Positions 36,435 through 37,951 of a stretch of 64,000 bases of DNA are shown piece after piece. The DNA is from Desertivirga arenae (GTDB taxonomy: Bacteria; Bacteroidota; Bacteroidia; Sphingobacteriales; Sphingobacteriaceae): contig NZ_JAFEWE010000002.1 of assembly GCF_017355785.1 (NCBI RefSeq), positions 546,618 to 610,617 of the forward strand. The letters are read 5' to 3'. Positions within the stretch are counted from its first letter, which is position 1. The number at the start of each line of letters is the position of its first letter. A model generated the notes under the pieces. It did not search any database and was not told the origin of the DNA. It saw only the letters and a program-made list of their open reading frames with translations. The translations under genes were made by a program, and so were the position numbers.

Positions 36435-37631
36435 TTACCAGTTGGTGTATTCCAGGATTGTTCCCAATTTCCTTAAAGCATTTCTCATGGTTGTATCATT
36501 AACATTGGAGAAATTTAAACGAAGGGTCTGCAGATCAGGAGATGAAGCATAAAAACTATCACCCGGAACAAAAATCACGTCCTGTTCCATTGCTTTTTTA
36601 AGGAACTCTCGTGCATTAGTAGTGCTAGGTAAGGTTAACCAGGTGAACATTCCTCCTTCAGGACGATTATACTGTACATTCTCCGGAAAGTATTCTTCAA
36701 TGCAGCTCAGCATCACATCCCGCTGGTATTTGTAATGCTTAACAATCTTAGAGACGTGATGATCGAGGTCATAGGTGCTAAGGAACTCATAAAGGATATG
36801 CTGTGAGAGGTTATTGGAATGCAGATCCGAAGCTTGTTTCATGATCGTTGCTTTCCTGATAATATCCTTATCTGCAACCATCCAGCCTACCCGTAATCCC
36901 GGTGCAACAGTTTTAGAAAAGGAACCTAACAGGATAGTTTTCTCGGGCAGGTATGAATAGATAGGAAGGGGTTGATGATTAGAAAAAGAAATATCTCCAT
37001 AAGGGTCATCCTCAATAACCATTGCCGGGTACCTTGCTGCAATTCCGGCTATCAACTTTCGCTTTTCTTCTGAATAATGCAGTCCTGTAGGATTTTGGTA
37101 ATTGGGGATGCAATAAAAGAGCTTGGGATTGCAATCGAACATTTTCTCTTCCAACTCGTCAGGATCGACACCATCGCTATTCAAAGTTACTTCCTCAAAT
37201 TTAGCCTGAAAAAGAGATAAACATTGTAAAGCACCAAGATAAGTTGGTCGTTCAAGCAGCACCTTGTCACCAGCATTCAGGAATACCTTTCCCAGAAGAT
37301 CGAGGGCCTGCTGAGAACCACTTGTAATAAGGATTTGTTCCGGAGAAATAGTTAATCCAAATTTTTGAAGATAACGGGCAGCAATGTATTCCCTTAATGG
37401 ATAATATCCTTCTGTCTCGGAATATTGAAGCACTTGCGCTCCCCTTTTCTGAAATACTTTTGCTGCACAATCCTCCAGCTCCTGCATAGGAAATAGGGCA
37501 GGATTAGGAAGTCCTCCTGCAAAAGAAACGATACCAGGATTGCTGGTTACTTTCAGGATTTCACGAATAAATGATTTAGGTACCTGCTGTACCCTTTGTG
37601 CAAATGGATAGTGTGGGGTTTCTACTGTCAT
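36435..37631 (-). CDS. PLP-dependent aminotransferase (LysN/2-aminoadipate type), attenuator-controlled
   Basis: A 398-aa fold-type I aminotransferase without a GntR DNA-binding domain. It has FAGGLPNPALFP near residue 38, ITSGSQQALDLLGKVFLNAGDKVLLERPTYLGAL near 103, YCIPNYQNPTGLHYS near 173, EDDPYGDI near 205, and the PLP lysine in LLGSFSKTVAPGLRVGWMV (K near 238). This subgroup includes LysN-like enzymes, some of which accept branched-chain amino acids. Two Val/Ile-rich leader peptides with terminators precede it, so I infer a role in valine, isoleucine or leucine synthesis. The substrate is not proven by sequence. Confidence 0.9.
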   Translation of the reverse strand: MTVETPHYPFAQRVQQVPKSFIREILKVTSNPGIVSFAGGLPNPALFPMQELEDCAAKVFQKRGAQVLQYSETEGYYPLREYIAARYLQKFGLTISPEQILITSGSQQALDLLGKVFLNAGDKVLLERPTYLGALQCLSLFQAKFEEVTLNSDGVDPDELEEKMFDCNPKLFYCIPNYQNPTGLHYSEEKRKLIAGIAARYPAMVIEDDPYGDISFSNHQPLPIYSYLPEKTILLGSFSKTVAPGLRVGWMVADKDIIRKATIMKQASDLHSNNLSQHILYEFLSTYDLDHHVSKIVKHYKYQRDVMLSCIEEYFPENVQYNRPEGGMFTWLTLPSTTNAREFLKKAMEQDVIFVPGDSFYASSPDLQTLRLNFSNVNDTTMRNALRKLGTILEYTNW

Positions 37632-37654: not shown

Positions 37655-37689
37655 AAAAAAAAAAGCCCCCCGGTTTTGACGGGAGGCTT
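37655..37689 (-). terminator. Attenuator terminator 2 (before the aminotransferase ATG)
   Basis: On the reverse strand: stem AAGCCTCCCG / CGGGGGGCTT (one G-U pair) with a 7-nt loop, then ten Ts, ending 24 bp before ATG 37631. Its 5' arm CCTCCCG can instead pair with CGGGAGG in the last codons of leader peptide 2 (37722-37716). Confidence 0.9.
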
Positions 37690-37710
37690 CGACTATTAAT
37701 TCTTTTAATA

Positions 37711-37800
37711 TCAATCCTCCCGCCATAAACGCACGACAGCCACCACCACTGCAATAATGGCTACTACTGAAAGATTAATATTTGCTACTGTTAATTTCAT
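37711..37800 (-). CDS. Leader peptide 2, Val/Ile-rich (29 aa)
   Basis: ATG at 37800, TGA at 37711. The 29 residues begin MKLTVANINL and end VRLWRED. They contain eight Val, three Ile and three Leu, with a VVV run and two VV pairs, as in ilv-type leader peptides. The last sense codons CGG GAG G hold the antiterminator strand that can pair with terminator 2. When charged Val/Ile/Leu tRNAs are abundant the ribosome reaches the end and the terminator forms; stalling at the Val codons frees CGGGAGG. The mechanism is inferred. The peptide could alternatively be a tiny membrane protein. Confidence 0.82.
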   Translation of the reverse strand: MKLTVANINLSVVAIIAVVVAVVRLWRED

Positions 37801-37815
37801 ATTCGCTTAAAACGA

Positions 37816-37843
37816 CAAAAGCCCGTCTTTTCGGGACGGGCTT
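37816..37843 (-). terminator. Attenuator terminator 1 (between leader peptides)
   Basis: On the reverse strand: 9-bp stem AAGCCCGTC / GACGGGCTT with loop CCGAAAA, followed by TTGTCGTTTT. Its 5' arm CCCGTC can instead pair with GACGGG at the stop codon of leader peptide 1 (37876-37871). Confidence 0.85.
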
Positions 37844-37874
37844 CTGCTGTATGTTTAAAATAAATACGCTCCCG

Positions 37875-37934
37875 TCAGCTGGCTGTAATGGCCACTGCTA
37901 CGACTACTGCGATATTTACTTTGTAAATTGTCAT
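37875..37934 (-). CDS. Leader peptide 1, Val/Ile-rich (19 aa)
   Basis: ATG at 37934, TGA at 37875. The peptide is MTIYKVNIAVVVAVAITAS, with five Val, three Ile and four Ala. Its stop codon TGA is part of GACGGG, which can pair with the 5' arm of terminator 1 and so act as the antiterminator strand. The layout repeats that of leader 2, giving two attenuators in series before one structural gene. A -7 box lies just upstream. Confidence 0.82.
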   Translation of the reverse strand: MTIYKVNIAVVVAVAITAS

Positions 37935-37943
37935 GTCTTGATC

Positions 37944-37951
37944 CAAATATA
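37944..37951 (-). promoter_or_regulatory. -7 box TATATTTG of the leader-aminotransferase transcript
   Basis: Matches TAnnTTTG on the reverse strand and ends 9 bp before the leader peptide 1 ATG, between hemF and the leaders. It suggests an independent promoter with a very short leader. The -33 TTG is not at the usual spacing. Confidence 0.55.

Follow-up and report, generated by a model that had tools for sequence, protein, structure and literature searches.

Two predicted transcription attenuators in series, with leader ORFs rich in valine and alanine codons, ahead of an aminotransferase gene in Desertivirga and related Sphingobacteriaceae

Attenuation is usually drawn in textbooks with one sensor per operon, and attenuation in amino-acid operons has reportedly been the subject of a comparative study by Lopatovskaya and colleagues. 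In the trp, his, ilv and leu leaders of E. coli and Salmonella the leader ORF carries runs of control codons, its stop codon lies on or near strand 2, a 2:3 antiterminator and a 3:4 intrinsic terminator exclude each other, and an amino-acid gene follows. The locus described here resembles these leaders in each of these respects, as far as can be predicted from its sequence. In Salmonella mgtCBR a single leader mRNA holds two short ORFs (mgtM and mgtP), each proposed to drive an attenuator of its own (PMC3641672), and all six loci considered below share that likeness. The two mgtCBR ORFs sense ATP and proline-tRNA and act additively; the stem-loops are unlike intrinsic terminators, and the authors suggest Rho (PMC3641672). 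Two leader peptides also lie ahead of ermB (PMC8274638). Closer in phylum, promoter type and amino-acid biosynthesis targets are the single attenuators of Flavobacterium psychrophilum, which the accessible part of that report presents merely as clues upstream of amino-acid operons, with no mention there of a tandem form (PMC9723704).

We consider it likely that transcription of the present locus has to pass two classical ribosome-mediated attenuators, placed one after the other on the same transcript and responding to valyl- and probably to alanyl-tRNA; this explanation is built on six sequences. The locus lies in a window of 64,000 nucleotides from Desertivirga arenae, the window being the whole stretch of DNA that was analysed. 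On the minus strand, from 37951 to 37655, a promoter box is followed by two short ORFs, of 19 and then 29 codons, each with an intrinsic terminator behind it, and the gene for a PLP aminotransferase lies directly beyond, with its ATG at 37631. The parts are as follows.

37944..37951, minus strand: -7 promoter box TATATTTG, matching the Bacteroidota sigma-A consensus TAnnTTTG
37875..37934, minus strand: leader ORF 1, MTIYKVNIAVVVAVAITAS, stop included; an equivalent Val/Ala-rich ORF is present in 6/6 loci
37871..37876, minus strand: strand 2 of module 1, GACGGG, overlapping the ORF1 stop codon; pairs with strand 3 at every base in the predicted 2:3 stem
37835..37840, minus strand: strand 3 of module 1, CCCGTC, the 5' arm of terminator 1 (by folding)
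37821..37841, minus strand: terminator 1, GCCCGTC-ccgaaaa-GACGGGC, then TTTTGTCGTTTT; -12.2 kcal/mol, z -4.2
37711..37800, minus strand: leader ORF 2, MKLTVANINLSVVAIIAVVVAVVRLWRED, stop included; an equivalent ORF is present in 6/6 loci
37716..37724, minus strand: strand 2 of module 2, GGCGGGAGG, in the last codons of ORF2; the antiterminator folds at -23.8 kcal/mol (z -5.5)
37678..37686, minus strand: strand 3 of module 2, CCTCCCGTC, the 5' arm of terminator 2 (by folding and by comparison of strand pairing across species)
37655..37687, minus strand: terminator 2, GCCTCCCG-tcaaaac-CGGGGGGC (hairpin 37687-37665), then ten T; -14.5 kcal/mol, with agreement from an independent terminator scan
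36435..37631, minus strand: PLP aminotransferase of 398 aa, class I/II, LysN / multiple-substrate group (Pfam PF00155; phmmer)

A first-pass annotation made from the window alone had placed the box, the two ORFs, the two terminators (the second with ten T) and the aminotransferase ATG on the minus strand, and all of them lie exactly where it put them. It had also counted the branched-chain codons correctly, with 5 Val and 3 Ile in ORF1 and 8 Val, 3 Ile and 3 Leu in ORF2, while leaving uncounted the four alanines of each ORF, which are more notable than the isoleucines. The exact complementarity it described between the ORF ends and the 5' arms of the following terminators is present in both modules (GACGGG/CCCGTC in module 1, CGGGAGG/CCTCCCG in module 2). 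The genes on either side, hemF (oxygen-dependent coproporphyrinogen oxidase) upstream and mtaB downstream, are on the same strand. None of the known Rfam leader and riboswitch families scored above its gathering threshold, the best being Phe_leader (26.6 against 55) and Thr_leader (19.1 against 55).

Searching 400 genomes of the family produced five further orthologues of the enzyme, with 59-61% protein identity, and hence a conservation set of six loci, the window included, from three genera. The order promoter, ORF, terminator, ORF, terminator is kept in all six despite the divergence of the DNA. Conservation in relatives had been set beforehand as one point on which the proposal could fall, and both ORFs and both stems were found at every one of the six loci. 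ORF2 starts 19-22 nt past terminator 1 in five loci and 110 nt past it in L013. In that locus the two are pushed apart by an insertion of some 90 nt (L013 ~1230-1340) that contains an inverted repeat (ATGAGCAT...ATGCTCAT). Searches at the order, class and genus levels gave no further orthologue above 43%. The nearest outgroup, the class-level relative L022 (43%), has no such leader as judged by eye, and in a wider search of contigs the matches were limited to distant Bacilli and a single other MAG, at 37-41%.

Covariance models trained on the six loci gave no other close match in the family genomes scanned. For module 1, only these loci reached about 100 bits or more (100-121) among 361 family genomes, the next match scoring 46.8; for module 2 they scored 75-97 bits among 346 family genomes, the next match scoring 48.5. 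Many of the weak matches of both models are ordinary gene terminators and were left out of the counts. The neighbouring genes differ between loci, save for two loci of the same genus that have an alpha/beta-hydrolase-like gene upstream in common. As the layout of the leader stays constant while the neighbours mostly change, leader and aminotransferase gene are kept as a unit. The enzyme is patchy, occurring in three of about 25 sampled genera and, within one genus, in 1 of 20 genomes, a distribution that suggests that the gene has been lost or transferred along with its leader.

Each of the twelve leader ORFs is followed by an intrinsic terminator with a T tract (-8 to -16 kcal/mol, with z as low as -4.7). 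In all twelve modules a strand that overlaps the final codons or the stop could base-pair with that terminator's 5' arm, and would be masked by a ribosome standing on the stop codon. The view that enterobacterial-type attenuation logic is duplicated in series, already put forward for the window, is thus borne out by the pairing potential and the terminators of every module, at the level of prediction. The antiterminator folds had a negative z against dinucleotide shuffles in 12/12 modules, with a combined z of -4.4 for module 1 and -8.5 for module 2. The 2:3 stem of module 2 is paired in 41 of 42 cells over seven positions and includes two compensatory columns, one with G-C, G-U, A-U and U-A and the other with G-C, G-U and A-U (24 of 720 permutations were equally good). 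There is no covariation support for the module 1 antiterminator because its core, GACGGG/CCCGUC, is nearly invariant: strand 2 is identical in three orthologues, with one base changed in L014 and two in L010.

The terminator arms pair better within species than when shuffled across species (2/720 permutations for terminator 1 and 12/720 for the other). Exchanging the antiterminator halves among species caused no significant loss of pairing (604/720 and 99/720 permutations), in part because the strands of module 1 do not vary and one half, that of module 2 in L013, was truncated in the test. The 1:2 protector hairpins gain little over shuffles of their sequence (combined z -2.5 and -1.1); in module 1 the hairpin is present in most folds, with a weak z. 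Each module has the short ORF with control codons, the intrinsic terminator and the predicted antiterminator of a classical attenuator.

It could be argued that one module alone regulates, most likely module 2, with module 1 a degenerate copy or there to set basal transcription only. The T tract of terminator 1 in the window is interrupted (TTTTGTCGTTTT), the first modules of L010 and L014 have one mismatch in the 2:3 pairing, whose potential is weak in L010, and the antiterminator z of module 1 is the weaker of the two. However, module 1 has kept its Val/Ala ORF, its terminator and a strand 2 overlapping the stop in all six loci, its model gives the highest scores (100-121 bits), and terminator 1 and ORF2 keep their 19-22 nt spacing in 5/6, which leaves regulation by a single module improbable.

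All six loci, the window and L010-L014, have a TATATTTG or TACATTTG box 6-9 nt ahead of ORF1. The sigma-A box of F. psychrophilum has the consensus TAnnTTTG and was mapped at -12 to -5 (PMC9723704). With the box set at -12 to -5, the predicted 5' UTR of ORF1 is 2-5 nt in 6/6 loci, and the mRNA should be leaderless or nearly so in all of them. Leaderless mRNAs are rare in the phylum, making up 5.5% in F. psychrophilum (PMC9723704), and 5' UTRs under 10 nt account for about 3.7% in Bacteroides thetaiotaomicron (PMC7366714). The near-leaderless ORF1 therefore looks like a design feature. A 5' UTR this short would let a ribosome load on the message once the mRNA emerges from the polymerase. In the trpE leaders L053 and L061 the spacing from box to ORF is 8 nt.

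The codons of the leaders show what is probably being sensed. Among 269 leader codons there are 54 for Val against 16.9 expected (p 3e-14), 43 for Ala against 18.5 (p 2.5e-7) and 33 for Ile against 19.9 (p 3e-3), while Leu, with 19 against 25.9, is under background. The stall windows, meaning those codons at which a halted ribosome would not mask strand 2, are mainly Val and Ala in 12/12 modules; pooled, they hold 36 Val, 25 Ala and 8 Ile in 86 codons. At the window locus they read VVAVAIT in ORF1 and AVVVAVV in ORF2. The rare codon GTC makes up 39% of the Val codons in the 12 leader ORFs and 8% in the genes of the window (p 4e-10), an over-use of about fivefold. GTC often occurs in the leaders as GTC GCA, and in several species it also pairs with the end of ORF1. 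Alanine makes up 16% in the aminotransferase leaders as opposed to 5% in the leaders of branched-chain operons from the same family (p 7e-7), which are higher in Ile and Leu. With stall windows of Val and Ala here, and ilv-type leaders poor in Ala, the control signal is best read as valine with alanine, rather than as the three branched-chain amino acids.

The first-pass annotation had suggested a branched-chain role. Its valine part stands, with 36 of 86 stall codons, but isoleucine and leucine have to give way to alanine, with 25 of 86. That two serial attenuators sense Val, Ile and Leu together, ahead of a general branched-chain aminotransferase, seems unlikely to us. Ile is modestly enriched (33 against 19.9), the LysN-group enzymes are broad in substrate, to go by the names of the phmmer matches, and another genome of the family, G323, has a tandem Ile-rich pair ahead of ilvE. 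Yet the stall windows hold Ile at only 8/86, and, in module 2, Leu at 2/43, where the two modules together have 36 Val and 25 Ala. Leu is under background across the leaders, the ilv-operon leaders of the family are Ile/Leu-rich and Ala-poor, and the genus has a separate ilvD attenuator of its own.

The modules differ in the balance of their stall windows, with Ala 14 and Val 15 in module 1 and Val 21, Ala 11 and Leu 2/43 in module 2. This pattern, together with the two-signal precedent of mgtCBR (PMC3641672), would suit an AND gate in which module 1 reads mainly alanine and module 2 mainly valine, a sub-case of serial attenuation and compatible with it. We doubt that the division is so clean: both amino acids occur in both modules in nearly every species, and GCA codons next to GTC, which account for part of the alanine, may be there for the sake of the 1:2 hairpin of module 1.

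Leader peptide sequence is barely kept, with 35% column identity and no invariant residue among the 12 peptides, and this bears on two further readings, in which the peptides themselves would matter. ORF2 is hydrophobic with a charged end, as might be expected if the ORFs encoded small membrane peptides with a function of their own, followed by ordinary terminators. But Leu, the usual residue of membrane helices, is under background while Val and Ala are enriched, the column identity is low, and each ORF end sits on a strand able to pair with a terminator arm. A loose (Y/N)IIS(V/A)xAVA motif, found in several peptides of both modules, could instead point to a nascent arrest peptide as the cause of ribosome stalling, rather than tRNA shortage. 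Here too the 12 peptides, with no residue in common, argue the other way, and codon bias to one or two amino acids is a mark of tRNA sensing. Given the lack of Leu enrichment and of any invariant residue, we regard both the membrane peptide and the arrest peptide as very improbable.

The enzyme is a class I/II aminotransferase (PF00155). Its closest solved relatives are archaeal multiple-substrate/kynurenine-type enzymes and LysN (phmmer: 1x0m 2.8e-97, 1wst 6.3e-90, LysN 2egy 1.6e-85), and the similarity to the solved members of this group is full-length, with about 380 residues aligned for 2egy and 1wst. It had been called LysN-like from the start, and the 2egy match (E 1.6e-85) agrees. An identity as AvtA, the valine-pyruvate transaminase, was rejected because the score of 116.9 bits against the NCBIfam equivalog NF006967 is far under the cut-off of 402. 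We infer the substrate from the control codons: on that basis a valine/alanine-responsive transaminase is predicted, and the simplest fit is a role in the synthesis or exchange of valine and alanine.

In the three genomes of the genus, ilvD is preceded by a single attenuator of its own, whose leader is rich in branched-chain codons (Ile, Val and Leu in the window genome). The window genome also encodes a fold-type IV aminotransferase that resembles IlvE; it is assigned by sequence motifs, has no leader and is probably a branched-chain aminotransferase. Given the separate ilvD attenuator and the IlvE-like enzyme, the aminotransferase studied here is probably not the sole route to the branched-chain amino acids.

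From the anatomy, conservation, codon bias and pairing potential we infer stalling and antitermination by two attenuators in series, which would operate as follows. The polymerase would start a few bases ahead of ORF1, and a ribosome would load immediately on the near-leaderless mRNA. On a shortage of Val- or Ala-tRNA it would stall in the Val/Ala run, about 12-33 nt ahead of strand 2, leaving strand 2 free to pair with strand 3, so that terminator 1 would be blocked and the polymerase continue. A new ribosome on ORF2 would then repeat the tRNA test ahead of terminator 2. With charged tRNAs, the ribosome would translate as far as the stop codon and mask strand 2, allowing the terminator to form. 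The aminotransferase would be encoded only by transcripts that escape both terminators, and the two readthrough probabilities should therefore multiply. Expression would then be shut off more tightly, and climb more steeply under starvation, than with a single attenuator.

This picture fits with what is seen elsewhere in the family, where single leader-peptide attenuators are common ahead of trpE, trpD, pheA, thrA, ilvN, ilvE, ilvA, ileS and ilvD. They come from weak model matches and from the regions upstream of ilvD and ilvE, and their downstream genes are named from sequence. Examples are thrA (L080, L088, L091, L152), trpE (L053, L061), trpD (L050), pheA (L064), ileS (L120), ilvA (L099) and ilvN (L087, L121, L125, L126, L134, L151), and the leaders carry matching codons (Thr/Ile, Trp, Phe/Tyr, Ile, Val). 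As single attenuators of the same design precede many amino-acid genes in the family, the mechanism is probably in use there. One genome has a second tandem pair (G323:C12; L117 2125-2389), with Ile-rich leaders MYNSIIISSIIIAGVISHTGEE and MKSYNNTIIISIIISSPP, each with a terminator after it, and ilvE immediately downstream of the pair. Serial duplication of attenuators may, tentatively, be a recurrent device of the family, one that arose on two or more occasions at transaminase genes unrelated to each other (the aminotransferase and ilvE). In place of the graded response of a single attenuator it would give a steep switch on near-leaderless mRNAs, either multiplicative or responding to two signals (Val AND Ala).

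A conserved pair with the same bias would allow the effect of series attenuation on gain and leakiness to be measured directly, and would show whether two tRNA signals combine. Valine and alanine give a lead to function for this aminotransferase group, and the leader-peptide attenuators of many amino-acid operons in the family can be found by simple comparison.

Compared with the E. coli and Salmonella leaders, the Desertivirga locus has two full serial copies, a near-leaderless first ORF and Val and Ala as control codons, and its target belongs to the LysN aminotransferase group. The two peptides of ermB belong to antibiotic-driven translational attenuation (PMC8274638), not to amino-acid-driven termination of transcription as proposed here. 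No earlier report of tandem or two-leader attenuation in Bacteroidota was found in the open-access literature searched. The first-pass annotation knew of no description of such an arrangement, which holds, within the searchable literature, for the form with intrinsic terminators, but not for tandem attenuators as such (mgtCBR; PMC3641672). Unlike mgtCBR, both Desertivirga modules have intrinsic terminators and a common codon bias, and with two such modules in series readthrough should multiply. As far as the open literature goes, it is this serial intrinsic-terminator form with a common codon bias that is new.
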